This document shows positions 23,392 to 41,486 of a stretch of 48,119 nucleotides of DNA, in pieces. Below the pieces are notes generated by a model. It worked only from the letters and a program-made list of their open reading frames with translations. It had not been told where the DNA came from and made no database searches. Where the stretch lies: NCBI GenBank assembly GCA_028824715.1, contig JAPPCV010000124.1, positions 1 through 48,119 on the forward strand, read 5' to 3'. Source of the stretch: Boseongicola sp. Lineage in GTDB: Bacteria; Pseudomonadota; Alphaproteobacteria; Rhodobacterales; Rhodobacteraceae. The position numbers and the translations under genes were made by a program. Positions within the stretch are counted from its first letter, which is position 1; every line of letters begins with the position of its first letter.

Positions 23392-24960
23392 TCAGGCCAT
23401 CAAGGTCGCTCTGGGACTCTCGTCCATCTGGCACGTCAAGTGATGCGCCAACCGCAGCGCAAGTCGCCCACGCAACGATTCGTGCTCGGGACTCTCCCAG
23501 AGATTCCGGGTCTCGTCCGGGTCGGCCTGAATGTCATACAGTTCGCCCCAGTCCTCGCCCGCGTAGATCGTGTATCGCCACTCCTTGGTCCTGAGCGTGC
23601 GCACCCGCGCAGGACGATCAAATCCAAGCTTGGCGGCCCCGTCGTTGAACTCGATCAACAGTTCGTCTCGGTGTCGATCCGAGCCCTTTGCGCAAGAAAG
23701 GAAGCTCTTCCCCTGCACGCCCCGGTAAGGCGTCAGTCCGGCCCTGTCGATGATCGTGGGTCCGATATCAATGCTTGATGCCAGCGCGTCGGACACGCGA
23801 GCGCTCCTGTCAGCCGGGTCGAACCAGATCATCGGCGCCTGAGTAAGCGCGCGAAACGGCATCGCCCCCTTTAGAAGGAGCCCGAAGTCTCCGAGGTAGT
23901 CACCATGATCGGAAGTGAACAGGATGACAGTGTTCTCGTAGAGGCCGCGCTCCTTGAGGCCATTGACGATTCGGCCAACGTGGTCATCAATCATCGTTAC
24001 CATGCCGGCAGTCAGAGCCATTGCCTCGCGGAGTTCCTGGTCTCCGACACGCATCGCTGTCTGCTTCGTGAACTGCCCGCCGCCTTCGCGGAAATTGCGC
24101 TCGAGCCAAGCCAGCGGAGGAGGCGGATTCTGATGCGCCTCGTATGGCAGGCGCAACTCGAACTGGTCCGGAGAGTACATGTCCCAGTACTTCCCTGGCG
24201 GATTGAACGGATGATGCGGATCCGGAAACGAGACAAGGGCCAGAAACGGCGCATCCGCACGTGACGTATCGCTCAGGTAGTCGATTGCCCGGTCCGCGAC
24301 CCATGTCGTCGGATAGAGGTCCTCGGGAACCGGGGTCCGGTACGCCTGCGGACAGGAATAGTTGTGCGGCAACTCGTTCGCGTCGTCCCAGAGCGCCTGC
24401 CAGTCCGGCGCCTGTTTCCGGAGCCATTGCTGGTAATGTCCCCGGCATCGGTCTCCGTGCGCGGACGCAAACTCGACGTGATTGAAGCCGAAATACGGCG
24501 CGCCGATCTCGTATTCCTCTCCCTCGTAGAGGTCGGGGTCCTCCTGCGAAAGTTCCTCTGCAAGCGGCTTCCAGGCCTCTTCGACCGGGCGTGGCGGAAG
24601 ACCGTCAGCGTCTGGCGGGTGCCGTGCCGGGTCGTGGGTGAAGGGCTGCAAATGGCTCTTGCCAATCAACGCCGTATCGTAACCCGCTGCCGCGAGAACG
24701 TCTGCAAACGTGTTGGCCGAGGTCGGAAGAGTGCATCCGTTGTAGCGAAGCCCGTGCCGCGAAGGCATCCGGCCCGTCATGATTGAGGCGCGGTTCGGCA
24801 TGCAGATCGGGGCTGCCACATGAAAGTCCGCGAACCGGGTGCCGCATGACGCAAGGGAGTCGACATTGGGCGTCTCGACGACAGGATGGCCATAGCAGCC
24901 TAGCCAGTCGGAACGCTGCTGGTCGGTGATCAGGAACAGGAAGTTCGGGCGGCCCGTCAT
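23392..24960 (-). CDS. Sulfatase family hydrolase (formylglycine, cysteine type)
   Basis: A 522-residue alkaline-phosphatase-superfamily hydrolase. The ATG at 24960 overlaps the stop of the TRAP permease (ATGA). Metal ligands appear in FLFLITDQQRSDWLG at the N-terminus and in LFTSDHGDYLGDFG. The sulfatase signature CMPNRAS (C-x-P-x-R) carries the cysteine that is matured to formylglycine, so an FGE-type enzyme is needed elsewhere in the genome. No Sec signal is seen, which suggests a cytoplasmic enzyme acting on an imported sulfate ester or phosphonate/phosphate ester. Coupling to the TRAP importer supports that. Confidence 0.9.
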   Translation of the reverse strand: MTGRPNFLFLITDQQRSDWLGCYGHPVVETPNVDSLASCGTRFADFHVAAPICMPNRASIMTGRMPSRHGLRYNGCTLPTSANTFADVLAAAGYDTALIGKSHLQPFTHDPARHPPDADGLPPRPVEEAWKPLAEELSQEDPDLYEGEEYEIGAPYFGFNHVEFASAHGDRCRGHYQQWLRKQAPDWQALWDDANELPHNYSCPQAYRTPVPEDLYPTTWVADRAIDYLSDTSRADAPFLALVSFPDPHHPFNPPGKYWDMYSPDQFELRLPYEAHQNPPPPLAWLERNFREGGGQFTKQTAMRVGDQELREAMALTAGMVTMIDDHVGRIVNGLKERGLYENTVILFTSDHGDYLGDFGLLLKGAMPFRALTQAPMIWFDPADRSARVSDALASSIDIGPTIIDRAGLTPYRGVQGKSFLSCAKGSDRHRDELLIEFNDGAAKLGFDRPARVRTLRTKEWRYTIYAGEDWGELYDIQADPDETRNLWESPEHESLRGRLALRLAHHLTCQMDESPRATLMA

Positions 24961-27308
24961 GCCGTGCCCGCAGACCTTCCACGTGCGCCGAAACGATGCC
25001 ACGCCAGGATCGCGACACCGGCTATGGCGGCCGGAACATGAACCGCCGGATTGCCGGACATGACGAACAGGGCGAGCGCGAGGCGAAGGCCCCAATCCCA
25101 TGTCGCCAGCGAGGTCCGGTCAAACCGTGCCAATGCACTGGCAAGCAGGACAAGCGCAAGCACCAGCCGAGCAAGTATCAGGGCCAGTGCGCCCAAATCC
25201 ACCGTGCCGTCATACCCGGGAAGGTAGCTGCCGTCGGTCGCGCCGGGATCGAGGAACGCAGCCTCGATCAGCAGCAGTTCGGGATTGAACGCGAACACGA
25301 ACGGAATCACGAACATCACGATCCCGATCCTGACGGCCGCAAATCCGGTCTGCATGGGATCCTGCTTGGTTATCGACGCCGCAGCAAAGGCCGCCAGGGC
25401 AATGGGAGGCGTGATCGCAGATGCAACCGCAAAGTAGAAGACGAACATGTGCGCCGTGAACACCGCCATGCCCAGGCCGGACAGGACCGGTCCCATCAGG
25501 AGGGCGACGTTCACGTAGGCGGGCACGGCGGGCATGCCCATGCCGAGCAAGACAGCCAGAACCATCGTGGCAACCAGCGCCAGGAGCTGGAAGAGAAGCG
25601 ATCCTCCCGCGCCCAGCCCGAGACTCTTTAGCCATCCGAGCACGTCAAGCGCGATGAACACCGGCAGCCCCGTGAACTTCAGGCAGAAGTCGATGATCGT
25701 CACCGCGAGGAACATGAGATAGAGGGTCGAGATCAGGTATCCTGCATCCGCCAAGGCGTCGACCAGCTTGCGGGGCCGCGCCCTCATCTTCGGATCCAGG
25801 AACAGGAGGATCACCAGAAACGCGACTGCCCACCAGCCTGCGCTGCCTGCATCGCCGGCCGAATTCTGAACGATCTTGAGCACCCAGGGCAGCGAACTGA
25901 CCTGGCACCCGGCCTCGGAGATCACGCGCTCGGCTCCGAGCAGCCAGCCTGCCAGTCCGCAGCCCACTTCTTCCTTGGTCGTAAGGAGCAACACGAGGAT
26001 CAAGAGGATCGGTCCGAATATCATGCACAGATTCAGAATGTCCTGGCGATCAAGCTCCATCTCGGGCGTAAGCTGACCCAAGGCCCTGATCTTCTGCTTG
26101 CGCGCCTGAAACACCACGGCCAGGAACAGGCACAGGAAATAGGCAAGGGCCGGAATCGCGGCCGCGATGATGACCTGGCTGTACGGCACACCGGTCAGGG
26201 CGGCCAGCACGAAGGCGGCGACGCCCATCACTGGCGGCATGATCGAGCCACCGGAGGAGGCCGCCGCCTCCATGGCGCCGGCAAAGACCTTCGAGAAGCC
26301 GCGCTTCACCATCATCGGGATTGTCAGCACGCCCGTCGAAAGCACGTTCACGATCGGACCGCCGGTGATCGTTCCGAACATGGCCGAGGAAACGATCGCG
26401 GCATGCGCAGGGCCGCCCGCCATGTTGCGGGTCCAGCGAAACGCGAGCTTGATCAGCGACTGCCCGCCGGCCGACGCCCCGAACAGCGATCCCAGGATCA
26501 GGTACGGGAAAATGGTGTTGAGGATGATGTCCATGAAACGGCCCAAGAGGCCGCTCCCGTTGTTGACGAGAATGTCGTGCACCTTCGGGCGGCCGTCGCT
26601 CAGCAGTCTCGGTTCGCCAGCAAGCTTGGTCATCAGGTACTTGTTGATGTCGTCCGGGCCGTGAAAGTACCAGACCATGACGGTGAGGAACGTGTACGTC
26701 GCCACTCCGAGCGCCACGAGCACCAGAGGCAATCCCCAGACCTTGATGTTGTAGCAAAGGAAGACAAGGATCGAGAGGCCCACTATCAGCACCAGCCAGC
26801 CTCCGGTCGTGCCGACACATTGCGGGTCCTCCACCGTCGTGGGCTCCGGCAATCCGTAGAGTTCGGCGAATTCCTTCTCCGCCTTCAGGCTTTCCGCGAT
26901 CAGGCGCTCCCGCTCACCGGTGATCTGGTCGATGAGGCAGATGGCCTCGAACTCGATCAGGAAAGTCGTCGAGATCATCAGCGCAGTGACGACCAGCGCG
27001 ACGTCCATGAAAAGCCCGAACCAGCGGCGGTGGGGAGACTTGCCGCGCCAGTCCCGCCACATCGAGTGCTTCAGCGCCACGATGAGCATCATCAGCGCGA
27101 AAATTATCGGGAAGAACCATTCGCGGGGAAACTTGCGGACCGTGATCCAGTCGAGGCCGGTCATGCTGCGCAGGGAATGCTCCAGCCCGGGTATGCCCGG
27201 GGTGGCGTTGAGCAGCCCGGCGATGACAAACACGACGGCCAGCACGTAAAGCAACCGCTCGGCGAAGGTTCGTGATGCCTCTTCAGATCCGGCGTTCGCT
27301 TCGGCCAT
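24957..27308 (-). CDS. TRAP transporter fused permease, TAXI type
   Basis: A 783-residue inner-membrane protein with a small DctQ-like part fused to a large DctM-like part. The ATG at 27308 has GAGGAGGGAGGGG upstream. There are many hydrophobic segments, and the DctM signature regions include GGPAHAAIVSSAMFGTITGG and AAASSGGSIMPPVMGVAAF. An unusual soluble stretch between the first helices (about residues 125-175) contains ICLIDQITGERERLIAES and Glu/Pro-rich sequence. Together with the TAXI binding protein it forms an Na+-coupled importer. The sulfatase gene follows in the same operon. Confidence 0.92.
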   Translation of the reverse strand: MAEANAGSEEASRTFAERLLYVLAVVFVIAGLLNATPGIPGLEHSLRSMTGLDWITVRKFPREWFFPIIFALMMLIVALKHSMWRDWRGKSPHRRWFGLFMDVALVVTALMISTTFLIEFEAICLIDQITGERERLIAESLKAEKEFAELYGLPEPTTVEDPQCVGTTGGWLVLIVGLSILVFLCYNIKVWGLPLVLVALGVATYTFLTVMVWYFHGPDDINKYLMTKLAGEPRLLSDGRPKVHDILVNNGSGLLGRFMDIILNTIFPYLILGSLFGASAGGQSLIKLAFRWTRNMAGGPAHAAIVSSAMFGTITGGPIVNVLSTGVLTIPMMVKRGFSKVFAGAMEAAASSGGSIMPPVMGVAAFVLAALTGVPYSQVIIAAAIPALAYFLCLFLAVVFQARKQKIRALGQLTPEMELDRQDILNLCMIFGPILLILVLLLTTKEEVGCGLAGWLLGAERVISEAGCQVSSLPWVLKIVQNSAGDAGSAGWWAVAFLVILLFLDPKMRARPRKLVDALADAGYLISTLYLMFLAVTIIDFCLKFTGLPVFIALDVLGWLKSLGLGAGGSLLFQLLALVATMVLAVLLGMGMPAVPAYVNVALLMGPVLSGLGMAVFTAHMFVFYFAVASAITPPIALAAFAAASITKQDPMQTGFAAVRIGIVMFVIPFVFAFNPELLLIEAAFLDPGATDGSYLPGYDGTVDLGALALILARLVLALVLLASALARFDRTSLATWDWGLRLALALFVMSGNPAVHVPAAIAGVAILAWHRFGARGRSAGTA

Positions 27309-27424
27309 AGCGACCCCTCCCTCCTCGCGGGGCGTGGTGCCGCCCGCCTCGGTGGCACGAATGCCGGACCGTCCGCGTCCGGACGGTCCGGTCAGCATCT
27401 CGCTTGGTCAAGCCGGAGGCGGCG

Positions 27425-28474
27425 TCACGGCTTGGCGCAGTCCGGCACGGTGTAGCCCGCCTCCTCCCAGGCGCGCACGGCGCCGGGATGGTATTTCAGG
27501 GGCATCGCACCGCACATGCCGGTCGTCGACGTGTCCTCGATCTCGCCCAGGGAAACGTTCGGCAGGAACGGCGTCTTTGACTTGATTGCGTCAAGGTTGT
27601 CGAGAACGGCCTTCGTCAACTGGTAGGCCGTCTCCTCGTCCATTTCCTTGCGCACGATCTCGCCGCCGACCGTGGCTATGCCGCGAAACATGCCGTCTTC
27701 CGAAACGACTGTCACGCCTTCAGCCTGCACGGCCTCGCTGAGCGGGATCTCGACGCGGCCCGAGCCGGGAGCTCTCATGTATTTCTGTGCCGCCTCACCC
27801 TCGAAGACGTCCTTCGGCATCGACCACATGGTCATGGCCCCGGCTGCCACGGCCTGTGTATGCCGGCCATCGGGGAAACTCGACGGAAGCACGAATGCAT
27901 CTGCCGAGCCGTCCGTCATGGTCTTGACCCCCTGGTCCCAGTTCACCTGCACGCCGGTATAGTCCTCGCCGTCGACAAGACCTGTCACAATCTTGACAAC
28001 GCCGCGGGCATTGGTCAGCGCAGCCCCCCGCGGCGGACCGTTGTAAACCGTCTTGCCCATGAGGTCATCCCAGCCCTTGACGGAAGAGCTGTTGTACGCC
28101 GACAAGGTGAACGCCCCCAGCCGATACGTGTAGAGAACTGCAAGACGGTCCACGTACTCCGCTCCGGTTTCCGCTCCGAGCTTGGCGTAGGGTCCCGCTC
28201 CCCTGGACAGCAGGAACGGCAGAATGAATGGCGTGGCCGTGATGTCCGTCTTCCCCTCCGCCACGTTCTGGACCGAGTTTGTCAGTGTCTGGCCGGTGGC
28301 CACCTGGATGTTCGCAATGCCGGCGGCCGAAGCGAACTCGCCAAGCGACAGAACGGTGTTGCCGGGCACGCCGGTGGCGTTTGCCGTCTCCGCCGTCAGG
28401 TTCTGCTGCGCGGCTGCCGTGCCAGCAAGCAACCCCGTCGCGGCCAGTGCAGCCGCAATTCTCGTGAACTTCAT
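27425..28474 (-). CDS. TAXI-family TRAP transporter solute-binding protein
   Basis: A 349-residue periplasmic protein. The ATG at 28474 has GGGAGGA upstream and gives a clear Sec signal peptide (KFTRIAAALAATGLLAGTAAAQ). The mature part shows TAXI features: early GNTVLSLGEFASAAGIANIQ and QNVAEGKTDITATPFI, and a C-terminal YHPGAVRAWEEAGYTVPDC. It captures an unknown, probably anionic organic solute for the permease encoded 116 bases downstream. It is transcribed divergently from the ThDP enzyme gene. Confidence 0.9.
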   Translation of the reverse strand: MKFTRIAAALAATGLLAGTAAAQQNLTAETANATGVPGNTVLSLGEFASAAGIANIQVATGQTLTNSVQNVAEGKTDITATPFILPFLLSRGAGPYAKLGAETGAEYVDRLAVLYTYRLGAFTLSAYNSSSVKGWDDLMGKTVYNGPPRGAALTNARGVVKIVTGLVDGEDYTGVQVNWDQGVKTMTDGSADAFVLPSSFPDGRHTQAVAAGAMTMWSMPKDVFEGEAAQKYMRAPGSGRVEIPLSEAVQAEGVTVVSEDGMFRGIATVGGEIVRKEMDEETAYQLTKAVLDNLDAIKSKTPFLPNVSLGEIEDTSTTGMCGAMPLKYHPGAVRAWEEAGYTVPDCAKP

Positions 28475-28494
28475 CTTGTCCTCCCGATCAAAAG

Positions 28495-28518
28495 CTGGCC
28501 AATTCAGCACGTGGCCAG
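28495..28518. promoter_or_regulatory. Palindrome in the divergent TRAP / ThDP-enzyme promoter region
   Basis: CTGGCCA (28495-28501) and TGGCCAG (28512-28518) form a perfect 7-bp inverted repeat with a 10-base spacer, centred in the 110-base gap between two divergent starts. This is a typical position for an operator controlling both directions. The cognate regulator is unknown. A separate TGCAAGCG half-site near 28555 resembles half of the operator at 32305. Confidence 0.55.
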
Positions 28519-28584
28519 TTCTGGGGAAGAGAACCTACCCATCCCCATCGATCATGCAAGCGAATATTGGAGCGCCTGAAACAC

Positions 28585-30312
28585 ATGCAGGGAACTGACA
28601 ATGCGGCACTCATGACGGCCGGCGGGGCGCTGTTCGGCAAGCTGAAGGCGCTTGGCGTCAGTTACGTGTTCGCGAATTCCGGAACGGACTTCCCGCCAAT
28701 CATCGAGGGACTGATCGAGGCGCGCAGCAGGGGGGTCGACCTGCCCCGGGCTGTGACCGTGCCCCACGAACATGTCGCGGTCGGCATGGCGCACGGATAC
28801 TACCAGATCTCGGGTCACGCCCAAGCCGTGCTGCTGCACACGAATGTCGGGCTTTCCAACGGCGCGACCGGCGCCATCAACGCCGCCTGCGACCAGGTTC
28901 CGATGTTCCTGATGTCGGGGCGGACGCCCGTGATGGAAGGCGGCCGCTTCGGCGCGCGCACCGTCCCGATCGGCTGGGGGCAGGAGATGCACGACCAGAC
29001 GGCCCTAGTGCGCGAAGCCTGCAAATGGACCTACGAACTGCGGTTCCCGGACCATCTGGCGGCAGTGCTGGACCGCGGCTGGACCATCGCCAACTCGTTT
29101 CCCAAGGGACCGGTCTACCTGAGCCTGCCCCGGGAGGTGCTGTGCGAACCCTGCCCGCTTGACGGGCTCGACGCAGGCTCGAACATGGCGCCTGTCGCCG
29201 CTGCGCCTGACCGCGCTGCGCTGGCCACTGCGGCAACACTCCTGGCCAGGGCCGAGCGGCCGCTTGTCATCGCTCAACGGGGAGCGGGGTCGGAGGAGGC
29301 CTTCATGGCGCTCGCCGGGCTGGTCGAGGATTGGGCCATTCCGCTGTCCCATTACTGGGCCAACCAGATCGCCATTCCCATGACGAGCCCGAGCCACGTC
29401 GACTGGTCCCCGGACGCGCTTGTCCGGGAGGCGGACGTCATTCTCGTCATCAACGCCCTCGCGCCCTGGTGGCCCGATCGCGCTGCCCCGTCACCGACGG
29501 CCAAGATCATCCAGCTCGGCCCCGACCCGCTCTTTGCGAGATCGTCTCCCATGCGAACGTTCCGTTCGGACGTCACGCTCGCCGGCGACACGGCAGCCGC
29601 GCTTCTCGAACTCGTTGCCGCCACGCATGCCCAGGCCAGGAACGAAGAGGATGTCGCCGAGCGTCGCGCCAGGATTTCCGCCCTTGCCGAGGACAACCGC
29701 AACGCGGTCCGAGATGCGGCTCGAGCGGGGAACGGTTCGCCCATGTCAAAGGAGTGGGTCAGCCATTGCCTCGGACAGGCTGTCAATGGCCGCAAGTCAA
29801 GCGTCTTCCACGAACTGGGCTGCCCGCTGCCGCCCCTCGAACTGGAGCATCATCTCTCCTACTTCCAGGAGCCGCATTCCGGCGGACTCGGCTGGGGCCT
29901 GCCTGCCGCCATGGGCGCGCAGCTCGCGGATCCTGAACGGCTCGTCTTCGCAACGGTCGGTGACGGCAGCTACATGTTCGCGAATCCGGTCGCGTGCCAT
30001 CAGGTCTGCGAGGCGCTTGGCCTGCCCGTCATCACCCTGGTCCTGAACAACGAGGAATGGGGCGCCGTGCGCAGCTCCGTCACGGGGCTCTACAAGGACG
30101 GGCTGGCCGCGAGGTCGAACGACGTGCCCCTTACGTCGCTGAGCCCCAGTCCGGACTTTGCGGCGATTGCCGAGGCCAGCCGCGCCTATGCCGAAACGGT
30201 TGTCGACGGAGCGGAACTGCCGGGCGCGCTGGAGCGGGCAATCGCCGTCGCGACCAAGGAGCGGCGACAGGTCCTGCTGAACATCTCGATAAGGAAGTCC
30301 GGCCTGCACTGA
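28585..30312 (+). CDS. Thiamine diphosphate-dependent enzyme, acetolactate-synthase-like
   Basis: A 575-residue three-domain ThDP enzyme. The start is ATG 28585 (an upstream TTG is possible). The catalytic Glu is in VPHEHVAVGMAHGY near residue 60. The ThDP/Mg motif is VGDGSYMFANP with LNNEEWGAV about 25 residues later (GDG-X-NN). The central domain resembles those of acetolactate synthase and sulfoacetaldehyde acetyltransferase relatives, but an FAD site is not evident. It probably decarboxylates or ligates a 2-keto acid made from the TRAP-imported substrate. It is monocistronic and divergent from the TRAP operon. Confidence 0.88.
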   Translation: MQGTDNAALMTAGGALFGKLKALGVSYVFANSGTDFPPIIEGLIEARSRGVDLPRAVTVPHEHVAVGMAHGYYQISGHAQAVLLHTNVGLSNGATGAINAACDQVPMFLMSGRTPVMEGGRFGARTVPIGWGQEMHDQTALVREACKWTYELRFPDHLAAVLDRGWTIANSFPKGPVYLSLPREVLCEPCPLDGLDAGSNMAPVAAAPDRAALATAATLLARAERPLVIAQRGAGSEEAFMALAGLVEDWAIPLSHYWANQIAIPMTSPSHVDWSPDALVREADVILVINALAPWWPDRAAPSPTAKIIQLGPDPLFARSSPMRTFRSDVTLAGDTAAALLELVAATHAQARNEEDVAERRARISALAEDNRNAVRDAARAGNGSPMSKEWVSHCLGQAVNGRKSSVFHELGCPLPPLELEHHLSYFQEPHSGGLGWGLPAAMGAQLADPERLVFATVGDGSYMFANPVACHQVCEALGLPVITLVLNNEEWGAVRSSVTGLYKDGLAARSNDVPLTSLSPSPDFAAIAEASRAYAETVVDGAELPGALERAIAVATKERRQVLLNISIRKSGLH

Positions 30313-32224: not shown

Positions 32225-32304
32225 TTCCCCTGCCCCCACGATCCTTGTCCGCGATCGCCTGCAACAAAGACCTTGCTTGCAATCGCCGCGCGAGTCTACA
32301 GTGC

Positions 32305-32320
32305 TTGCAAGCGTATGCAA
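32305..32320. promoter_or_regulatory. LacI-type operator in the divergent catabolic promoter region
   Basis: TTGCAAGCGTATGCAA has perfect 5-bp outer arms (TTGCA / TGCAA) around a central CG, a typical LacI/GalR operator. It lies in the 121-base gap between the divergent SnoaL-like gene and the ABC ATPase gene. On the minus strand TTGCAT and TAGACT (spacing 16) overlap it. TTGCTTGCAA at 32273-32282 may be a second, partial site. The LacI protein encoded at 35871-36896 is the likely ligand. Confidence 0.65.
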
Positions 32321-32345
32321 ACGCGAGGCTCTGGGGGAGGTTTCA

Positions 32346-33427: not shown

Positions 33428-33520
33428 GAGGATGCGTCGTTGCGATGCGCGTCCCCCAGACGAAACTCGGAAGCAGGCCGCGAAGGGCGCCAGGTCCCAA
33501 GATGCCGGAAGGGCGACAAC

Positions 33521-34831
33521 ATGACAATTGACTACCTGAAACGTTCCAAGCCAGAAGCCGAAAAGGCCGAAGACGACGCGAAAGTGCGCGCCAGCGTCGA
33601 GGCCGCGCTTGCGGACATCGAGGCTCGCGGCGACGACGCTGTCCGCGAAATGTCCGCCAGGTTCGACAGCTACGAACCCGCCAGCTTCCGCCTGTCCGCT
33701 TCCGAAGTCGAGGCCGCCATGCAAAAGGTTGGCGCGCGCGACATGCAGGACATCACGTTCGCGCAGGCGCAGATCCGGCGCTTCGCCGAAGCGCAGCGCG
33801 CGTCGATGACGGACATCGAGATCGAGACGCTCCCGGGCGTGGTGCTGGGGCACAGGAACATTCCCGTCCAGTCCGTTGGCTGCTACGTGCCGGGCGGCAA
33901 GTTCCCGATGGTCGCCAGCGCGCACATGTCGGTCCTGACCGCCTCCGTTGCCGGGGTGCCGCGAATCATCGCCTCTGCGCCACCCGTCGACGGCGCGCCG
34001 CATCCGGCGATCGTCACCGCGATGAAGCTGGGCGGCGCTCACGAGATCTACGTCATGGGCGGGATCCAGGCCGTGGGCGCCATGGCTCTCGGCACGGAAT
34101 CCATCGATCCCGTCCACATGCTCGTCGGACCCGGCAACGCCTTCGTGGCCGAGGCCAAGCGCCAGCTCTACGGTCGCGTCGGCATCGATCTCTTCGCCGG
34201 ACCGACCGAAACCATGGTCATCGCCGACGAAACGGTGGACGCCGAACTCTGCGCCACCGACCTGCTAGGCCAGGCCGAGCACGGCTACAACTCGCCGGCC
34301 TGCCTCGTCACGAACTCTCGAAAGCTCGCGAACGAAACCATGGCCGAAGTCGAACGCCTGCTCCGGATCCTGCCGACGTCCGGGACCGCCAGCGCATCCT
34401 GGCAGGACTACGGCGACGTCATACTCTGCGATTCGCATGACGAGATGCTGGCGGTCGCCAACGACCTGGCCTACGAGCACGTCCAGGTCATGACGGACCG
34501 GGATGACTGGTTCCTGGAGAACATGCATTCGTATGGCGCCCTCTTTCTCGGCCCGCGCACCAACGTCGCCAATGGCGACAAGGTCATTGGCACCAACCAT
34601 ACGCTGCCGACGAAGAGGGCGGGGCGCTACACGGGCGGACTCTGGGTGGGCAAGTTCCTCAAGACTCATTCCTACCAGAAGGTCACGACCGACGAGGCCG
34701 CCGCGTTGATCGGCGAATACGGTTCGCGTCTCTGCATGCTGGAAGGGTTCGTCGGACATGCGGAGCAGTGCAACATCCGCGTGCGACGCCACGGCGGGCG
34801 CAACGTGCCCTTTGGCGCGGCCGCCGAGTAG
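33521..34831 (+). CDS. Histidinol dehydrogenase family protein, catabolic paralogue (HpsN-like)
   Basis: A 436-residue zinc-dependent dehydrogenase paralogous to HisD. All metal and catalytic residues are kept: Gln251 and His254 in [10 protein letters not shown], Glu319-His320 in LAYEHVQVM, Asp353 in [13 protein letters not shown], and His413 in GFVGHAEQ. The QAEHGYNSP motif replaces the biosynthetic QAEHDESAQ and resembles what I remember of HpsN, which oxidises 2,3-dihydroxypropanesulfonate to sulfolactate. The substrate is therefore probably a small polyol or hydroxy compound, possibly sulfonated, and not histidinol. AAGGG precedes the ATG. The next gene starts inside its stop codon (TAGTG). 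Confidence 0.85.
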
Positions 34832-35874
34832 TGGCCGCGCCCTCGGACATCAGGGCCGGCATCGCCGGCTACCGCGCGGCCAGCGCGACATTCGCGCCTG
34901 GCGCGGTCAAGGCTGCGCTTGCCGCGACCTTCGACAACGAGGCATCCCTGCGTCTTTGTCACCCGTTTGGCGACCAGGTCGGGCCGGATGCCCTTTTTGC
35001 CGCCTGCCTCGGCCCGCTGCACCATTCCATGCCCGATCTCGAGCGCCGCGACATGATCCTGGTTGCCGGCACCACCCCGGAAGGCCAGGACTGGATCGGC
35101 GCCATGGGCAACTACATGGGCACGTTCACGAGTTCCTTCCTGGGCGTTCCGCCGACCGGCCACCTCGCCCACATGCGCTACCACGAGTATTTCCGGCTTG
35201 AGGGCGGACGCGTCACCGAAATGCAGATGATCTGGGACATCCCCGAACTCATGATGCAGGCCGGCGCCTGGCCCATGGCCCCGCAGCTCGGAAAGTTCCT
35301 CTGCACGCCCGCGCCGATGTCAGGCGACGGCCTGACCGCGGCAGGTTCCGGCGATGCAGCGCTCAAGATCGTGACAGACATGCTTGCCGACCTTTGCCGC
35401 CATCCGGCGGAAGGCGGCCCGGACGTCATGAATCTCGCGACGCACTGGCATCCGCGCGTCAACTGGTACGGGCCGGCCGGCATCGGCACGACGCGCGGCC
35501 TGGCCGGCTTCCGGCATTGGCACCAGATCCCGTTCCTTCGCGCCATGCCCGACCGGAAGCTCGACGCCATGGGCGACCTGATGTCCCATTGGCTGGCCGA
35601 GGGCGACTATGTCTGCGAAACCGGCTGGCCCAACATGCGGGTCACGATCACGGGCGACGGATGGATGGGCATTGCGCCCGCAGGCCAGAACGTGTTTCTC
35701 CGTTCCCTGGATTTCTGGCGCGTCGAAGATGGCCTCATCCGCGAAAACTGGGTCCTCGTGGATCTCCTCGACGTTTACGACCAGATCGGCGTCAACGTTC
35801 TCGATCGCATGGCGGAGTTCAACAAGGCACGCAATGCGGGACCGGTCGCGCTGAGCGACGGACTGGCTGAATGA
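34831..35874 (+). CDS. Two-domain SnoaL/NTF2-like protein, paralogue 2
   Basis: A 347-residue protein of two NTF2-like barrels. The GTG at 34831 shares one base with the upstream TAG stop, and no better start exists. It aligns along its length with the 31232-32224 protein: HLAHMRYHEYFRLEGGRVTE with WDIPELMMQAG in domain 1, and VNWYGPAGIGTTRGLAGFRH plus LDFWRVEDGLIRENWVLVDL in domain 2. The function is unknown; the fold fits a cyclase, isomerase or dehydratase acting on an intermediate of the dehydrogenase reaction. It is coupled to the dehydrogenase upstream and to lacI downstream (ATGA). Confidence 0.8.
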   Translation: MAAPSDIRAGIAGYRAASATFAPGAVKAALAATFDNEASLRLCHPFGDQVGPDALFAACLGPLHHSMPDLERRDMILVAGTTPEGQDWIGAMGNYMGTFTSSFLGVPPTGHLAHMRYHEYFRLEGGRVTEMQMIWDIPELMMQAGAWPMAPQLGKFLCTPAPMSGDGLTAAGSGDAALKIVTDMLADLCRHPAEGGPDVMNLATHWHPRVNWYGPAGIGTTRGLAGFRHWHQIPFLRAMPDRKLDAMGDLMSHWLAEGDYVCETGWPNMRVTITGDGWMGIAPAGQNVFLRSLDFWRVEDGLIRENWVLVDLLDVYDQIGVNVLDRMAEFNKARNAGPVALSDGLAE

Positions 35875-36896
35875 CGGGCAAGGTGACATCTTCGGAAGTG
35901 GCCGCCCGCGCCGGCGTCAGCCAGTCTGCCGTCAGCAGGGTGTTCACGCCAGGCGCATCCGCGTCCGCGAAGACGGCGAAGAAGGTGCGGGAGGCGGCAC
36001 GGGAACTCGGCTACCGCCCGAACTCGCTCGCGCGCGCGATGGTGTCCGGAAAGAGCCGCATCATCGGTCTCGTGGTCGCCTACCTGGAAAACCAGTTCTA
36101 CCCGGTGGCGCTCGAACTGCTCTCGAACGCGCTGCAGGCCCGCGGCTACCACCTGCTCGTCTTCACGGCCCCGAACACGGCCGAGAGCGTGGACGGAGTC
36201 GTCCAGGATCTCATGGACTACCAGGCGGACGGGATCATCGCGGCGTCGGTGTCCATGAGCTCGGATCTTGCAGGGCGGGCGCGTCAAGCTGGGATACCGG
36301 TGGTCCTCTTCAACCGCGCCCAGGAAGGCGAGGGACTCGTGAACGTCACGTCGGCCAATGTCGACGGCGGCCGGAAGATCACGGAGTTCCTGATCCGGGG
36401 CCGGCACGAGCGAATCGCGCACATCGCGGGCTGGCAGGGAAGTTCGACTGGCCGGGACCGCCGCGAGGGATTCCTTGAGGCGATGGAAGCCGCCGGGATG
36501 GAACCGTTCGCGCTGGTCGACGGCATGTACAAGCGTCCGGTGGCAATGGAGTGCGCACGCCAGCTCGTCGCGGGCCGAGCCCGGCCGGACGCGATCTTCG
36601 TCGGCAATGACCACATGGCGTTCGGCGTGCTTGACGCGCTTCGACGAGCCGGCATCGAGCCGGGCAAGGACATTTCCGTCGTGGGCTACGACGACGTGCC
36701 GCTGGCAGCCTGGGACGCCTATGCCCTGACCACCTTTCGCCAACCCGTCAATCGCATGGTCGAGGCGACGGTGAACATCCTCATCGACCAGATCGAGACC
36801 GACGTGGCCGAGCCCGAATCCATTCAATTCGAGGGCGAGCTCGTCCTCAGGACGTCGGCCCGAATTCCAGAAGGACTTGCCAATGAAGGGCTTTGA
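35871..36896 (+). CDS. LacI-family regulator of the catabolic locus
   Basis: A 341-residue LacI/GalR regulator. The helix-turn-helix is TSSEVAARAGVSQSAVSRVF (residues 6-25), followed by the hinge YRPNSLARAMVSGKS and the effector domain with DAIFVGNDHMAFGVLDALRR and ISVVGYDDVPLAAWDAYALT. The ATG overlaps the stop of the upstream SnoaL-like gene (ATGA), and the following SnoaL-like gene starts inside it. A regulator embedded between two paralogous enzyme genes is strongly tied to this pathway. The likely target is the palindrome at 32305-32320. Confidence 0.9.
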   Translation: MTGKVTSSEVAARAGVSQSAVSRVFTPGASASAKTAKKVREAARELGYRPNSLARAMVSGKSRIIGLVVAYLENQFYPVALELLSNALQARGYHLLVFTAPNTAESVDGVVQDLMDYQADGIIAASVSMSSDLAGRARQAGIPVVLFNRAQEGEGLVNVTSANVDGGRKITEFLIRGRHERIAHIAGWQGSSTGRDRREGFLEAMEAAGMEPFALVDGMYKRPVAMECARQLVAGRARPDAIFVGNDHMAFGVLDALRRAGIEPGKDISVVGYDDVPLAAWDAYALTTFRQPVNRMVEATVNILIDQIETDVAEPESIQFEGELVLRTSARIPEGLANEGL

Positions 36897-37866
36897 TACC
36901 CGTTTCGCCGACTTCCCGGACTACATCCTCGGGATCACCAGGGAGATCTGGGAAGATCGTGGCATTGCCACGCTGCACGAATACTACACCGAGAACATCG
37001 TCGTTCGCAGCCCGGCATCTGTGGTCATCGGAAACAGGGGCGTGATCGCGGCCACGATGGCGACATTGGCCGAATTCCCGGATCGCCAGCTTCTCGGGGA
37101 AGATGTCATCTGGTCCGGGTCGCCGGAGGAGGGCATGCTCAGTTCGCACCGCCTCCTTTGCATCACGACGCATGCGGGCGACGGAGTCTATGGCGCGGCG
37201 ACCGGCACCAGGCTTGCCTACCGGGCCATCGCCGACTGTCACGCCATCAACAACCAGATCGACGACGAATGGCTGATCCGTGACCAGACGGCGATCGTCA
37301 GGCAGCTGGGCTGGGACCCCAAGGACTATGCGCGCGACCTGATCGCCCGCGAGGGCGGGCCGGAAAGCTGCGTCCGGCCGCTTTCCCCGGCGACCGACGT
37401 GGATGGCCCGTATTCCGGGCGCGGCAACGACAACGAGTGGGGCGCGCGCCTCGGGGACATCCTGACGCGCATGATGAATGCCGACATGGCCGCGATACCC
37501 CGGGAGTACGACCGTGCGGCGCAGCTGGAACATCCGGGTCTCGTGACCGGCCACGGGCACGGAGATGCCGACCGATTCTGGATGGGCCTGCGCGCGGCCT
37601 TCCCGTCAGCCGAATTCTGCATCCATCACCGGATCGGTCGCGACGATCCGATGATGCCCCCACGGGCCGCCGTCCGATGGAGCCTGACCGGAAAGCATGA
37701 CGGCTGGGGCGCCTATGGAACTCCGACGGGCGCCGATGTGCACGTGATGGGCATCACCCACGCCGAATTCGGAACGCCAGGCAAGGCCCCGCCCCGCCTC
37801 CGAAGGGAATGGACCTTGCTCGACGAAACCGCGATCTGGAAGCAGATCTTGCTAGGCACCGGGTGA
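36883..37866 (+). CDS. Two-domain SnoaL/NTF2-like protein, paralogue 3
   Basis: A 327-residue protein with two SnoaL-like halves, more diverged than the other two copies. The ATG at 36883 has GAAGGA 8 bases before it and overlaps the lacI end by 14 bases. Domain 1 has ITREIWEDRGIATLHEYY and NIVVRSPASVVIGNRGVIAA. Domain 2 has AHPGLVTGHGH-like sequence, then FWMGLRAAFPSAEFCIHH and REWTLLDETAIWKQIL. Acidic and His residues line the predicted pockets, but no catalytic assignment is possible. It is coupled to lacI and 3 bases from the SRPBCC gene. Confidence 0.78.
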   Translation: MKGFDTRFADFPDYILGITREIWEDRGIATLHEYYTENIVVRSPASVVIGNRGVIAATMATLAEFPDRQLLGEDVIWSGSPEEGMLSSHRLLCITTHAGDGVYGAATGTRLAYRAIADCHAINNQIDDEWLIRDQTAIVRQLGWDPKDYARDLIAREGGPESCVRPLSPATDVDGPYSGRGNDNEWGARLGDILTRMMNADMAAIPREYDRAAQLEHPGLVTGHGHGDADRFWMGLRAAFPSAEFCIHHRIGRDDPMMPPRAAVRWSLTGKHDGWGAYGTPTGADVHVMGITHAEFGTPGKAPPRLRREWTLLDETAIWKQILLGTG

Positions 37867-37869
37867 AGC

Positions 37870-38334
37870 ATGCAAAGCACGTCGGCAACGATCAAAGTCA
37901 CTCGCGCGTTTCCGCATCCCGCGGAATCGGTCTTCGCACACTGGATCAGTCCCGAGACACGCCTGCGATGGGAAGCCGGGCCGGACACCGGCATGACCTA
38001 TGACGCATTCGACACCCGCGAAGGAGGCGTCGAAACGGTTCGGATCGTGCAGGACGGCAAGGAAATCGGCCACATGTTCCAGAACACGCATCGACTGGTC
38101 GAGGGCCAATTGATGGCCTACAGCCTGACGGGGGTCTTCGGGGGCGTCCTGACGACGCTCATGCAGATCGCGATCGAGTTCCAGCCGACCGACGAGGGGT
38201 GCAGGCTTGACGCGACCGCGCAGGTCATCGACCTGACGGGCGGCGACGTCCAGACTCAGCACGAGGCCGGCTGGGACTGGATTCTCGACCGGTTCGAGGC
38301 CGACATCGCGGAGCACGGGCTGGTCACGGGATGA
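37870..38334 (+). CDS. AHSA1/SRPBCC-domain protein
   Basis: A 154-residue START-like (Bet v 1 fold) protein. The family pattern is visible as VTRAFPHPAESVFAHWISPETRLRW at the N-terminus. The central TREGGVETVRIV follows, and the C-terminal helix is QTQHEAGWDWILDRFEADI. Such proteins bind hydrophobic or aromatic ligands, and some act as cyclases or hydrolases. The role here is unknown, but its place as the fifth gene of the tightly packed dehydrogenase-SnoaL-lacI-SnoaL run implies work on the same substrate. A 240-base gap follows. Confidence 0.85.
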   Translation: MQSTSATIKVTRAFPHPAESVFAHWISPETRLRWEAGPDTGMTYDAFDTREGGVETVRIVQDGKEIGHMFQNTHRLVEGQLMAYSLTGVFGGVLTTLMQIAIEFQPTDEGCRLDATAQVIDLTGGDVQTQHEAGWDWILDRFEADIAEHGLVTG

Positions 38335-38535: not shown

Positions 38536-38575
38536 CAGGCGGCCAGCGCCCAACATTGCGCAAGGAAAGATGCCC

Positions 38576-39535
38576 ATGACCGACCTAAACGACCGAATCG
38601 TCCGCTATGGCGAGCTCAAGCCGTGCAAGACGGCCTTCATTGACGCCCATACTCCGGGCTCCGACCAGAAGGAGAATTTCACGATCATCGGCGGCGGCGT
38701 CTCGGAAAGCCCGGACCAGCACGTCCACATCAATCTCCCCCATGGATTCAACATCGGCGCGGCGGGGCAGCCGCCAAAGTGCCGAAACTCGCTTCACGTG
38801 CACCGGACCGCCGAAGTCTTCTTCGTCCTCTCCGGCCGCTGGAGGTTCTTCTGGGGCCGCTGGGGCACGGCCGGCGAGGTCGTGCTGGACGAAGGCGACA
38901 TCATTGACATCCCCACCGGCATCTTCCGGGGCTTCGAGAACGTCGGCACCGAATACGGAATGATCAAGGCGATTCTCGGAGGCGACGACGCGGGCGGCGG
39001 CGTCGTCTGGGCGCCGCAGGTTATCGAGGACGCGGCTGATCACGGGCTGGTGCTTGCCGAGACCGGCAAGCTCTACGACACGAAAAAGGGCGAAGAGTTG
39101 CCGGACGGCGTCGGACCGATGCGCAAGCTTTCCGAGGACGAAGCCAACAGCCATCCGGAACCGACGACCCGGGAAGTCGTTGGCGGATACGTCCGCCGCT
39201 ACCGGGACATGGTCGCGCTCGCGGACAAGGCGCCCTGCAAGGTCATTGGCGAATCGGCCATCATCCGCGACAGGCCCGGCTTCGAGGTCGACCTGGTCAC
39301 GCGGGCCTCCGCAAGCGACGCCATGCACAGCCACGAGCACCCGTCAGTGCTGATGCCGGTCAAGGGACATTGGCGCGTTGCATGGAAGGACGGCGAAACC
39401 GTCCTGGCGCCGGGCGACACCATGAGCGTTCCGGAAGGGCTTGACCACTCCGCCGTGCCGTCGATGTCCGGCGAGGCAGCGCTCTATCACGTCGTCGGGA
39501 CGGACGATCCCGCGGGTGCCACATGGACCGGCTGA
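38576..39535 (+). CDS. Double-cupin protein
   Basis: A 319-residue protein with two cupin barrels. The ATG at 38576 (or 38570) follows AAGGA. The first cupin carries HVHRTAEVFFVLSGRWRFFW, with metal-ligand His, His and Glu, and later DEGDIIDIPTGIFRGFENVG. The second has MHSHEHPSVLMPVKGHWRVA and APGDTMSVPEGLDHSAV. Both barrels keep histidine ligands, so it may be a dioxygenase or isomerase. Between them lies a charged linker (DTKKGEELPDGVGPMRKLSED). It lies between the SRPBCC gene and the MetE-like gene, in the same direction. The substrate is unknown. Confidence 0.83.
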   Translation: MTDLNDRIVRYGELKPCKTAFIDAHTPGSDQKENFTIIGGGVSESPDQHVHINLPHGFNIGAAGQPPKCRNSLHVHRTAEVFFVLSGRWRFFWGRWGTAGEVVLDEGDIIDIPTGIFRGFENVGTEYGMIKAILGGDDAGGGVVWAPQVIEDAADHGLVLAETGKLYDTKKGEELPDGVGPMRKLSEDEANSHPEPTTREVVGGYVRRYRDMVALADKAPCKVIGESAIIRDRPGFEVDLVTRASASDAMHSHEHPSVLMPVKGHWRVAWKDGETVLAPGDTMSVPEGLDHSAVPSMSGEAALYHVVGTDDPAGATWTG

Positions 39536-39653: not shown

Positions 39654-40784
39654 ATGACCCGCATCCTGACCACGCACGTGGGCTCCCTGCCCCGAACCCA
39701 GAAGGTCGTCGACTTCATCTTCGCCCGCGAAAGGAACGAACCGTTCTCGCAGGACGACTTCGACGCGGCCATGGCCGAGGCGGTCATGGAAACCGTGAAG
39801 AAGCAGGTTGATGCAGGCGTCGACATCGTCTCCGACGGAGAGACCTCGAAGATCAGCTATGCCACCTATGTCAAGGACCGCTATACCGGGTTCGACGGCG
39901 ACAGCCCCAGGAACGCGCCCGAAGACCTGAAGCGGTTTCCCGGCTTTCTGAAGCGCCTGGCCGACGACGGCGGCACGCCGCAATATGCAAGGCCCCTCTG
40001 CGTCGGAGAGGTCAGGTCCAAGGGCCAGGGAGAGTTGCAGAAGGACATCGCGAACCTGAAGGCCGCCATGGAGGCGCACGGGGCCAGACGCGGCTTCATG
40101 AACGCAGCGTCGCCCGGCGTGATCTCCCTCTTTCTGCAGAACGAATTCTATCCCAGCCGCGAGGCCTATCTGGCCGCGCTGGCCGACGCGATGAAGGAAG
40201 AGTACGAAACGATCGTTGCCGCCGGACTTGACCTTCAGCTCGATTGCCCGGACCTGGCGTTGTCGAGGCACATGCTCTTCACGGACCTCTCGGACGAGGA
40301 GTTCGTGAAGGTTGCGGGCATGCACGTGGAGGCGCTGAACGGCGCGCTGAGGGACATTCCAGAAGACCGGATCAGGGTCCACATCTGCTGGGGCAATTAC
40401 GAAGGCCCGCATGTCTGCGACATTCCGATGGCAACGATGTTCGACACGCTCATGTCGGCCCGGGCGCGCCATGTGCTGTTCGAGACCTCCAATCCACGCC
40501 ACGGCCATGAGTGGACCGTGTTCAGGGATCGCAAGGCCGACATTCCCGACGACAAGCTGCTGGTGCCGGGCGTTGTCGACACGACAACCAACTTTGTCGA
40601 GCATCCTGACCTCGTCGCGCAACGCATTGAGCGGTTCGTCGACATCGTCGGAGCCAAGCGGGTCATCGCGGGAAGCGATTGCGGGTTTGGCACCTTCGCC
40701 GGTTTCGGCGCGGTCGACCCGGACATCGCATACGCGAAGCTGGCCGCGCTTTCGGAGGGCGCCGCGAAGGTCGGGCAGGAGTAG
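39654..40784 (+). CDS. MetE C-terminal-domain-like zinc methyltransferase, stand-alone
   Basis: A 376-residue cobalamin-independent methionine-synthase-family protein consisting of only the catalytic barrel, about half the length of MetE. HVGSLPRT (residues 8-15) is the folate-binding-type motif. The zinc ligands are preserved as HIC (about 241-243), Glu in LFETSN (about 276) and Cys in GSDCGFG (about 343). It could transfer a methyl group from, or to, the substrate of this pathway. Biosynthetic MetE activity is less likely because the N-terminal domain is absent and the neighbours are catabolic. The RraA-family gene follows after 3 bases. Confidence 0.85.
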   Translation: MTRILTTHVGSLPRTQKVVDFIFARERNEPFSQDDFDAAMAEAVMETVKKQVDAGVDIVSDGETSKISYATYVKDRYTGFDGDSPRNAPEDLKRFPGFLKRLADDGGTPQYARPLCVGEVRSKGQGELQKDIANLKAAMEAHGARRGFMNAASPGVISLFLQNEFYPSREAYLAALADAMKEEYETIVAAGLDLQLDCPDLALSRHMLFTDLSDEEFVKVAGMHVEALNGALRDIPEDRIRVHICWGNYEGPHVCDIPMATMFDTLMSARARHVLFETSNPRHGHEWTVFRDRKADIPDDKLLVPGVVDTTTNFVEHPDLVAQRIERFVDIVGAKRVIAGSDCGFGTFAGFGAVDPDIAYAKLAALSEGAAKVGQE

Positions 40785-40787
40785 AAC

Positions 40788-41486
40788 GTGATGGATGACG
40801 CGCTGCTGGCACTCCTTCGCTCGGTTGACACGCCGACGGTCTGCAACGCCATAGAGGTTGCGGAAGGGAAACGCGGCTTCGACCGCTTCACGCGTGGAAC
40901 CGTGCTGTGCAGCGATCCGGATGCCGGCGCGCTCGTCGGCTTCGCGCGGACCGCGAAGATCGCGGGCGCCTTGCCGCCTGAAGTGGCGCCCGAGACCGTC
41001 AGGTCAATTCGCATGGACTACTACCGCCACATGGCAAGCGGGGCCCGCCCCGCGCTTGCGGTCATCGAAGACCTTGATGGCGAGGAGGCCGTCGGAGCCT
41101 ATTGGGGCGAGGTGAATGCGACCGTGCACAAGGGATTCGGCCTTTGCGGTGCCCTGACAAACGGGGTCATGCGCGATCTTGGCGATCTTCCTGAGGGCTT
41201 TCCGGTGATCGCGGGATCCATCGGACCCAGCCATGGATTCGTGCATGTGAGGGAAGTCGGAACGCCGGTCACGGTCTTCGGGTTGACGATTTCGGACGGC
41301 GACCTCGTCCACTCAGACCGCCATGGCGCGCTTGTCGTCCCCGAGGACTGCGTTGAAGGGCTCGCGGACGCGATCGGGAAGATGCAGGAGACAGAACAGA
41401 TCGTCCTTTCCGCGGCCCGCGCGCCCGGCTTTGACTTCCAGGCATTCGAGGAGGCCTGGGCGGCGTTCGAGAGGGCCCGCGTCTAG
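40788..41486 (+). CDS. RraA-family protein (4-hydroxy-4-methyl-2-oxoglutarate aldolase / oxaloacetate decarboxylase-like)
   Basis: A 232-residue protein starting with GTG 40788 or the ATG directly after it, with AGGAG 6 bases upstream. The family motif is visible as GALTNGVMRDLGDLP (G-x3-NG-x2-RD), preceded by FGLCGAL. The metal-site motif is DLVHSDRHGALVVPED. Members are aldolases or decarboxylases that split 4-hydroxy-2-oxo acids to pyruvate, or bind RNase E. In this catabolic setting a lyase role at the end of the pathway is more plausible than RNase control. It is the last gene of the locus. Confidence 0.85.
   Translation: MMDDALLALLRSVDTPTVCNAIEVAEGKRGFDRFTRGTVLCSDPDAGALVGFARTAKIAGALPPEVAPETVRSIRMDYYRHMASGARPALAVIEDLDGEEAVGAYWGEVNATVHKGFGLCGALTNGVMRDLGDLPEGFPVIAGSIGPSHGFVHVREVGTPVTVFGLTISDGDLVHSDRHGALVVPEDCVEGLADAIGKMQETEQIVLSAARAPGFDFQAFEEAWAAFERARV

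Follow-up and report, generated by a model that had tools for sequence, protein, structure and literature searches.

The locus treated here raises the question of whether the catabolic genes packed into 18 kb of a Boseongicola sp. genome (Rhodobacteraceae; assembly GCA_028824715.1, 5.24 Mb) serve a single pathway. The window, that is, the whole stretch of DNA analysed, comprises 48,119 nt (contig JAPPCV010000124.1, positions 1-48,119), and the stretch under study occupies 23392-41486. An earlier note had taken these 18 kb as one locus in which uptake is followed by desulfation, oxidation, demethylation and C-C cleavage. All gene families that it named are recognised with Pfam and NCBIfam, on which the assignments below are based, including the UgpC-type ATPase, the AHSA1/SRPBCC protein, the MetE C-domain-like protein and the RraA-like protein. 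The neighbourhoods of these genes in other genomes, however, divide the stretch. Judged by them, the right part (~30.4-41.5 kb) is part of a predicted catabolic operon conserved in Rhodobacterales, the sulfatase, TRAP and TAXI genes at the left are a separate module, presumably for a sulfated compound, and the gene for a thiamine diphosphate (ThDP)-dependent enzyme is a third element that belongs to neither unit. The right part would be a LacI-controlled operon for the import and degradation of one small, hydrophilic, polyhydroxylated molecule, an explanation that, taken as a whole, we consider on balance probable.

Conserved Operon and Gene Content

The cupin gene was used as the marker for the operon in Rhodobacterales genomes (n = 244). 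It is present in 118 of them, the source genome included, and three of these have a distant form only. The 15-20 kb around the cupin were read in 80 of the 118 genomes (order loci, extending ~10 kb from the cupin), and the presence of each gene was scored at identity thresholds of 40-70%, set gene by gene. A second set, the best 80 of 571 named loci, was scored at 45% identity, and its genomes partly overlap the order set (named loci).

In the order loci the HisD-family dehydrogenase, at an identity of at least 70%, accompanies the cupin in 68 of 80, the LacI-type regulator in 70, the SnoaL-like protein SNO3 in 71, a short-chain dehydrogenase/reductase (SDR) in 68 and the MetE-like protein in 61. 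Importer permeases occur in 51-52 loci, the binding protein in 49, SNO2 in 53, RraA in 46, the ATPase in 39 (within the stretch read) and an alpha/beta-hydrolase in 37; some SnoaL-like gene is found in 73. The named loci give similar figures (HisD 68, SNO3 75, MetE 66, RraA 55). The expectation that these genes co-occur outside this genome thus holds for the right part, which appears as a coherent, LacI-linked catabolic operon. Its relatives extend to Rhizobiales, Sphingomonadales and one Klebsiella plasmid. The genes of the right part are as follows.

30351..31235, minus strand: AMH, Amidohydro_2 family hydrolase (Pfam PF04909), accessory, overlapping SNO1
31232..32320, minus strand: SNO1, two-domain SnoaL-like protein (Pfam), in 8/80 order loci; true start probably near 32224
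32305..32320, no strand: predicted LacI-type operator TTGCAAGCGTATGCAA in the divergent SNO1/ABC promoter, a perfect match to a palindrome built from relatives
32277..33395, plus strand: UgpC/MalK-type ATP-binding cassette (ABC) ATPase (NF008653, 437.6 bits, cut-off 432); true start probably the TTG at 32346, downstream of the operator
33440..34831, plus strand: HisD-superfamily dehydrogenase, HpsN-related, motif GKFPM; conserved start near 33521
34768..35874, plus strand: SNO2, two-domain SnoaL-like protein (Pfam)
35871..36896, plus strand: LacI-family regulator (Pfam/NCBIfam)
36877..37866, plus strand: SNO3, two-domain SnoaL-like protein (Pfam, structure model)
37870..38334, plus strand: AHSA1/SRPBCC protein (Pfam), a local addition
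38570..39535, plus strand: bicupin of a family with AFID..PGS, HxHxxxE and FRGF (Pfam, alignment, structure model)
39654..40784, plus strand: stand-alone MetE-like protein with conserved zinc-ligand segments (Pfam/NCBIfam)
40788..41486, plus strand: RraA-like protein, candidate class II pyruvate aldolase (Pfam/NCBIfam)

The start of the cupin gene is placed near 38570-38576, at the beginning of the conserved N-terminus, and not at 38348. Tight coupling, to which the earlier note had pointed, is found in the runs 33440-38334 and 39654-41486, whose junctions range from -64 to +3 bp (three overlaps of 4 to 64 bp and two gaps of 3 bp); the other junctions between the ATPase and RraA genes are wider, at 44, 238 and 118 bp. 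The SRPBCC-like gene recurs in a single order locus (30% identity), and at 96% identity in a sister genome (L120).

The composition of the operon varies among relatives, and annotated plasmid records contain fuller forms of it than the window. In Marinovum algicola the cluster comprises ATPase, binding protein, two permeases, a short SnoaL, HisD, SNO2, LacI, SNO3, cupin, MetE, hydrolase and RraA, and no SDR was found in it; a Ruegeria plasmid has an otherwise identical set, with SDR and without RraA. In Octadecabacter arcticus, HisD, preceded by the ATPase, is accompanied by SNO2, SDR, LacI, SNO3, cupin, MetE, hydrolase and RraA, the permeases lie ~4 kb further upstream and no binding protein is in view. 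MetE is absent from the Paracoccus cluster and from those of Martelella, Roseibium and Sinorhizobium medicae. The latter three encode an amidase and a further ester cyclase, and S. medicae has a HisD match that falls into two pieces, without an annotated HisD. The compact cluster of the Klebsiella michiganensis plasmid (L228) has LacI, HisD, SDR, a major facilitator superfamily transporter, hydrolase, an HpcH/HpaI aldolase and cupin. Two ideas were rejected. That MetE and the hydrolase are alternative demethylation routes found no support, as no mutual exclusion was seen (27/28/5/4 in 64 loci, p = 1.0), and the amidase, found in 3/80 order and 3/80 named loci, is too rare to be a general part of the operon, which weighs against a general amide-cleaving step.

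A third arrangement is seen in L030, L056, L078 and L087, where a close cupin (70-80% identity) and RraA are combined with a sugar ABC importer of another kind and no close HisD is present. Named by a look at the sequence only, an S-adenosylmethionine-dependent methyltransferase-like gene lies between cupin and MetE in 12 loci (e.g., L024:10432-11052) and an enolase-superfamily-like gene lies downstream in 12 (e.g., L028:13383-14615). On plasmid pMaD9 of Marinovum algicola (L044) the operon adjoins a cluster annotated for dimethylsulfoniopropionate (DMSP) demethylase (DmdA) and DMSP breakdown. The source genome has a second cupin-type cluster on contig C161 (L288:4852-10456) with ATPase, LacI, a short cupin stretch and a hydrolase match in two pieces, which looks decayed or badly assembled.

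Predicted Regulation and Importer

The operator pattern TTGCANRCGYNTGCAA was built from palindromes in some relatives together with the promoter of the window itself; the palindrome core of the relatives gave 17 hits, in 9 loci in one orientation and in 8 in the other. When up to two mismatches are allowed, the pattern occurs in 46 of the 80 loci (76 hits), compared with 14 of 80 (15 hits) after one mononucleotide shuffle of each, a comparison that favours the pattern, as it was derived from the same loci as those counted. Forty-seven of the 76 hits are intergenic, and the first gene downstream of them is that of the ATPase, HisD or the binding protein. At this tolerance a single hit falls in the window (0.71 expected); it is a perfect one, situated in the divergent promoter of SNO1 and the ATPase. 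The whole genome has two perfect sites, at 32305-32320 and at position 22511 of contig C116, and two with one mismatch; a reversed control pattern gave one.

The site on C116 lies 60 bp upstream of an ATPase match that is 79% identical to the ATPase of the window. Genes for a binding protein and two permeases follow, which complete a sugar-type ABC importer, together with a SNO2-like gene. In relatives the four components of such a CUT1 importer are encoded together in the operon, whereas in the source genome they stand at C116. The ATPase of the window had been called an orphan. It has indeed neither permeases nor a binding protein in the window, but an importer under a common predicted operator accounts for it, and the shared site suggests a two-locus regulon of window and C116. 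The closest solved relatives of the binding protein are weak and generic sugar binders, a sulfoquinovosyl-glycerol binder among them, and give no hint of the substrate. More importers of the same type are encoded at C116:1-5600 (L119, with SnoaL genes) and on C175 (L115); no operator match was found in the stretches read of these two.

HisD-Family Dehydrogenase

The HisD protein of the operon passes TIGR00069 (421.6 bits, cut-off 243.8), a model that does not separate histidinol dehydrogenases from the dehydrogenases of sulfopropanediol (DHPS), and the window has a separate, higher-scoring HisD at 12329-13540. The closest solved structures to the operon protein are DHPS dehydrogenases (367-380 bits), the best histidinol dehydrogenase reaching 259 bits, and the operon protein lacks the G-S-A-P-L motif of HisD. 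The segments that hold the HpsN catalytic residues Gln248, His251, Glu318, His319, Asp352 and His411 (GQAEHG, AYEHV/ASEHV, GDKVIG and VGHAEQ) are kept in the alignment. Superfamily, catalytic and zinc segments, the GDK segment and a predicted catabolic, alcohol-oxidising role are shared with HpsN, the R-DHPS 3-dehydrogenase. According to PMC11382572, HpsN proteins have the motif G-R-Y-A/S-H, in which His126 binds the sulfonate. The protein of the window differs in having G-K-F-P-M, with Met at the position of His126, and GKFPM is found in all 141 hits with at least 70% identity (124 distinct); five distant cluster members have G-K-Y-P-L. Moreover, no sulfolactate genes were recognised in the cluster. 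Since the histidine is absent, the enzyme should oxidise an alcohol other than DHPS; HpsN-like in mechanism, it should convert a primary alcohol next to a hydroxyl into an acid. The oxidation of a hydroxy group foreseen in the earlier note thus has a suitable candidate. The source genome encodes another HisD (46% identity) on contig C127 (404-2477, L118), which has the motif GRYSH and follows directly on an SDR with 62% identity to the cluster SDR; this is likely a true HpsN/DHPS locus.

Cupin, MetE-Like and SnoaL-Like Proteins

The model of the cupin (pLDDT 78.6, poor at residues 15-50) matches bicupins such as quercetinase, oxalate decarboxylase and salicylate dioxygenase with TM-scores of ~0.5 or less and, among the 50 matches listed, at identities of 10-17%. 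The bicupin fold and the HxHxxxE of the first cupin are shared with quercetinase, salicylate 1,2-dioxygenase and oxalate decarboxylase, but Arg stands where their fourth ligand His stands, in 14 of 14 aligned sequences across cluster types and in all 152 distinct close ones, so that the 3-His-1-Glu metal site of the quercetinase type is incomplete. The reaction may be an oxygenation, an isomerisation or a hydration.

The MetE-like protein falls below the equivalog cut-off (102.4 against 406 bits, NCBIfam) and passes Pfam Meth_synt_2 (45.7 against 21). The segments HICWG, FE(T/A/S)SNPRH and (G/S)SDCGF, with the zinc ligands His, Cys, Glu and Cys, are kept in 119 of 119 distinct sequences, own included, and the mean column identity over 15 members is 85%. 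Because these segments are kept, methyl or thiol chemistry is likely, in line with the demethylation proposed earlier. The zinc segments HxC, E and C and GS(L/M)PR are those of the C-domain of cobalamin-independent methionine synthase, in which the usual further segment is DEPA; the protein of the window differs in having DCPD at that position and in standing alone in a catabolic operon.

The three SnoaL-like proteins are two-domain proteins, as had been noted: Pfam finds two SnoaL stretches in each of SNO1 and SNO2 and one match per half in SNO3, whose model (pLDDT 92.2) is a two-domain NTF2-type protein. Single halves of SNO3 match SnoaL-type cyclases such as IdmH (TM-score 0.78 by target length), and the best E-values are those of two-domain polyether epoxide hydrolases, although the whole chains superpose poorly (TM-score 0.31-0.39).

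Probable Terminal Cleavage and Two Endings

The metal-binding and catalytic motif of RraA-fold aldolases is D-X20-R-D, and its R-D pair is present in 93 of 93 distinct RraA sequences. The RraA-like protein further resembles the 4-hydroxy-4-methyl-2-oxoglutarate/4-carboxy-4-hydroxy-2-oxoadipate (HMG/CHA) aldolases LigK and ProA in its family, in its place at the end of a catabolic operon and in its replacement by an HpaI-type enzyme in relatives; it differs in scoring 30.6 bits against a LigK/PcmE cut-off of 304.5 and in having Glu for Asp in the metal motif. PMC5065237 places HMG/CHA aldolases of the RraA fold among the class II pyruvate aldolases, and a title in the reference lists of PMC5065237 and PMC8563752 describes an RraA-fold aldolase as convergent with HpaI.

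Close and distant cupin loci were compared separately (80 close; 20 or 22 distant, depending on the count). In Klebsiella (L228), S. wittichii (L229), L219 and L220, RraA is replaced by an HpcH/HpaI aldolase that adjoins a related cupin and a hydrolase, and L218 combines cupin, HpaI and a hydrolase. Among 20 distant-cupin loci, HpaI alone occurs in 11, RraA alone in one, both in three and neither in five; the 80 close loci have RraA in 46 and HpaI in none. That one pyruvate aldolase can give way to another of unrelated type indicates that the end step is probably a pyruvate-releasing aldol cleavage, which agrees with the C-C cleavage to a 2-oxo acid that had been assigned to RraA.

The distant loci also differ in what accompanies the cleavage. 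On an Ensifer plasmid, an annotated 3-oxo-tetronate kinase stands with a cupin of the same family. When two loci were scanned with NCBIfam, this kinase, OtnK, exceeded its cut-off of 350 in each (546 and 538 bits) and the decarboxylase OtnC exceeded its own in one (284 bits, cut-off 250), whereas the isomerase OtnI fell below its cut-off (288 against 325). In 22 distant-cupin loci, HisD occurs in eight, OtnK in seven, both in none and neither in seven (Fisher p = 0.022, relatedness not removed), whereas the 80 close loci have HisD in 68 and OtnK in none. Two loci with the OtnK ending, L221 and L231, have an importer of the Marinovum type (ATPase 72-73% identical, permease 1 70-71%, permease 2 70 and 45%, binding protein 58-59%) and also keep SNO3 (61%). 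The parallel clusters share with the operon the cupin family, a hydrolase and, with its distant members, the HpaI aldolase, and in two of these clusters SNO3 and a close importer occur as well; the operon of the window differs from the Otn tetronate pathway in that OtnI, OtnK and OtnC are absent and HisD stands instead. It seems that one kind of substrate is finished in two ways, by early oxidation of a CH2OH group (HisD) or by handling of 3-oxo-tetronate (OtnK/OtnC). In Primorskyibacter flagellatus (L155, 4170-20725), a HisD/MetE/RraA cluster and an OtnK/OtnC cluster are adjacent, each with its own cupin.

Proposed Pathway and Candidate Substrate

The proposal starts from what is observed, namely conservation, synteny, gene families, active-site segments, the replacement of parts and a predicted operator that also precedes a complete importer elsewhere in the genome. 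The importer encoded on C116, with the local ATPase, would bring the substrate in, and the SnoaL-like proteins would prepare it by dehydration, isomerisation or removal of a side chain. The HisD protein would use two NAD+ to turn a terminal CH2OH that neighbours a hydroxyl into a carboxylate, and the MetE-like protein would take off a methyl group. The bicupin and the alpha/beta-hydrolase of the full operon would then open the molecule to a 4-hydroxy-2-oxo acid, which RraA would cleave to pyruvate and a C4 acid, oxaloacetate-like if the CH2OH had been oxidised first. In the parallel clusters the CH2OH would stay unoxidised and the C4 product would be 3-oxo-tetronate, to be handled by OtnK and OtnC. 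The logic of the earlier note, in which oxidation and demethylation lead up to a cleavage that gives a 2-oxo acid, is plausible for the operon and can now be drawn more sharply. Many marine bacteria probably use this gene set to take up one small molecule and dismantle it to pyruvate. Given how widely its cupin occurs in the order (118 of the 244 genomes sampled), the operon points to a common marine substrate with a degradation route that the literature searched does not assign; no description of the cluster appears among the titles and abstract openings searched, which cannot show that nothing is in print. The parts list, the operator and the two interchangeable endings make the substrate searchable.

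Several points weigh against this proposal. The operon of the window has no SDR, hydrolase, permeases or binding protein; the best hydrolase match of the genome is in two pieces and its best SDR adjoins the HpsN-type gene. At the thresholds used, HisD is missing in 12 of the 80 order loci, of which several are cut by a contig end and others, such as the L030 type, are not; RraA and HpaI are both missing in 34 and the alpha/beta-hydrolase in 43. The relatives counted are not independent, four of the seven OtnK loci being near-identical in layout, and the palindrome core ACCGCGCGGT, present in 13 loci, is commoner than the one used. The replacement of the fourth cupin histidine by Arg makes dioxygenase activity doubtful. 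In RraA, the acid 21 residues before the R-D pair is Glu in 92 of 93 sequences where the motif has Asp, and another RraA-like protein, FlDet, is a dehydratase/decarboxylase according to PMC8563752. Taken as a whole, we place the operon reading only slightly on the probable side.

A strong rival, possible in our judgement though clearly less probable, is an oxygen-free route for a sugar or polyol, in which HisD and SDR would convert a terminal diol (-CHOH-CH2OH) to a 2-oxo acid. The cupin would then act as a sugar isomerase or epimerase and the hydrolase as a lactonase, and the aldolase would be of the 2-keto-3-deoxy-sugar-acid type. The sugar-type ABC importer and LacI regulator would suit such a route, as would the cupin lacking the full dioxygenase ligand set, the Otn enzymes, which are sugar-acid enzymes, and the HpaI relatives, which include 2-dehydro-3-deoxyglucarate aldolase. 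The hydrolases of the parallel clusters weakly resemble the enol-lactonase PcaD, and HisD acts with other dehydrogenases in DHPS catabolism according to PMC11131964. By itself, however, this route leaves the MetE-like gene (61/80) and the SnoaL-like genes (73/80) unexplained.

Returning to the operon reading favoured here, a tentative candidate for its substrate is a sunscreen of the mycosporine/gadusol type, a C7 methoxy-cyclitol, although we think it rather unlikely that the operon degrades this very class. The C7 ring of these compounds has C=O or N at C1, OCH3 at C2, OH or N at C3, then CH2, C5 with OH and CH2OH, and CH2. The SnoaL proteins, or the amidase of some relatives, would release the amino acid and HisD would oxidise the CH2OH at C5; cupin and hydrolase, with or without demethylation by the MetE-like protein, would open the ring beside C2 to 4-carboxy-4-hydroxy-2-oxoadipate, which RraA would turn into pyruvate and oxaloacetate. 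Without HisD, gadusol, which has an extra ring hydroxyl, would yield pyruvate and 3-oxo-tetronate, the substrate of the OtnK that the HisD-free clusters carry. The C7 ring fits since these two products hold seven carbons (3 + 4 = 7). For a ketone to arise from aldol cleavage, the alcohol must be tertiary and branched, and the gadusol/mycosporine carbon with OH and CH2OH is of this kind. This fit is chemical inference from the structures, whose ring also has the methoxy group and a 1,3-dicarbonyl, and it leaves the assignment doubtful. The ecological fit is weak: the recorded sources of the genomes include the red alga Rhodosorus marinus and the coral Galaxea fascicularis, but also soil and legume hosts. 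Against the candidate also stand the rarity of amidases (3/80), the rhizobial versions without MetE and the OtnI isomerase beside some OtnK, which would also suit a 2-oxo-tetronate product. If it were true, the operon would provide genes through which microorganisms break down a major class of sunscreens from algae.

Sulfatase, TRAP and ThDP Genes

The left half of the stretch contains four genes.

23392..24960, minus strand: sulfatase (Pfam PF00884), separate module; open reading frame extending to 25101, likely start 24960
24957..27398, minus strand: fused TRAP permease (TIGR02123, 325 bits, cut-off 320.65), separate module
27425..28510, minus strand: TAXI-like binding protein (PF16868 above cut-off, TIGR02122 below cut-off), separate module
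28567..30312, plus strand: ThDP-dependent enzyme of the PRK08327 family (NF006203, 639 bits, cut-off 456), outside the conserved operon

At identities of at least 40-45%, sulfatase, TRAP and TAXI are found in 0/80 order and 0/80 named loci, a count that is uninformative since the loci reach ~10 kb and the spacing in the window is 10-15 kb; weaker matches are a sulfatase (30%) in L030 and TRAP pieces (37 and 44%) in L036. As such short-range counts cannot speak for these genes, distances and the contexts of TAXI loci were used instead. Thirty other TAXI-bearing genomes were found among 196 searched, and in the 20 of them that also have the cupin the two genes lie on separate contigs (nine genomes) or 26.8 kb to 3.6 Mb apart (11 genomes). 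In nine TAXI loci read to 10 kb per side, the fused TRAP gene adjoins TAXI in all nine and a sulfatase lies within 3 kb in eight (53-58% identity in three, 28-30% in five); no operon genes were found in these nine, the span being sufficient for ATPase, HisD, SNO2, LacI and SNO3.

The ThDP gene behaves likewise. In ten other genomes with both genes it is never near the cupin, being on a separate contig in seven and more than 350 kb away in three. No operon genes were found in the eight ThDP loci read, five of which have two ABC ATPase-like matches. No relative of the ThDP enzyme was found in PDB at 1e-30. Within ~10 kb of the cupin and at an identity of at least 45%, the ThDP and amidohydrolase genes were found in none of the 80 order loci and in one of the 80 named loci, that of a sister metagenome-assembled genome (L120, Boseongicola sp. 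SB0665_bin_10), where the order from ThDP to RraA is kept at 85-98% identity.

The distances of TAXI and ThDP from the cupin, together with TAXI and ThDP loci that lack operon genes, set the left half apart from the widely shared operon of the right half. It is improbable that the whole 18 kb is one lineage-specific pathway in which the sulfatase desulfates before the conserved operon acts. The physical neighbourhood suggests it, and the sister genome keeps ThDP, AMH and SNO1 beside the operon, but its contig starts at ThDP, so that TAXI, TRAP and sulfatase are out of view there, whereas TAXI-TRAP-sulfatase groups stand without operon genes in eight of nine loci and neither TAXI (20 genomes) nor ThDP (10/10) is near the cupin where both occur. 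A single pathway was accordingly rejected, and neither desulfation as the first step nor the ThDP enzyme as a pathway member is supported; the suggestion in the earlier note that the TRAP/sulfatase half may be a separate module is borne out. Least probable of all is that the substrate is DHPS or another sulfonate, with HisD acting as HpsN and the sulfatase and TRAP genes as parts of the route: HpsN is the closest solved relative and the Lys of the GDK segment is kept, but Met replaces the HpsN histidine in 124 of 124 distinct relatives, the genome has another, GRYSH-bearing HisD on C127, and sulfatase and TRAP form their own module, so that DHPS was rejected as the substrate. The separate module is bordered, on the sulfatase side, by a gene for an Rpn-type transposase/nuclease (PF04754; 21892-23025), which lies just to the left of the sulfatase gene.

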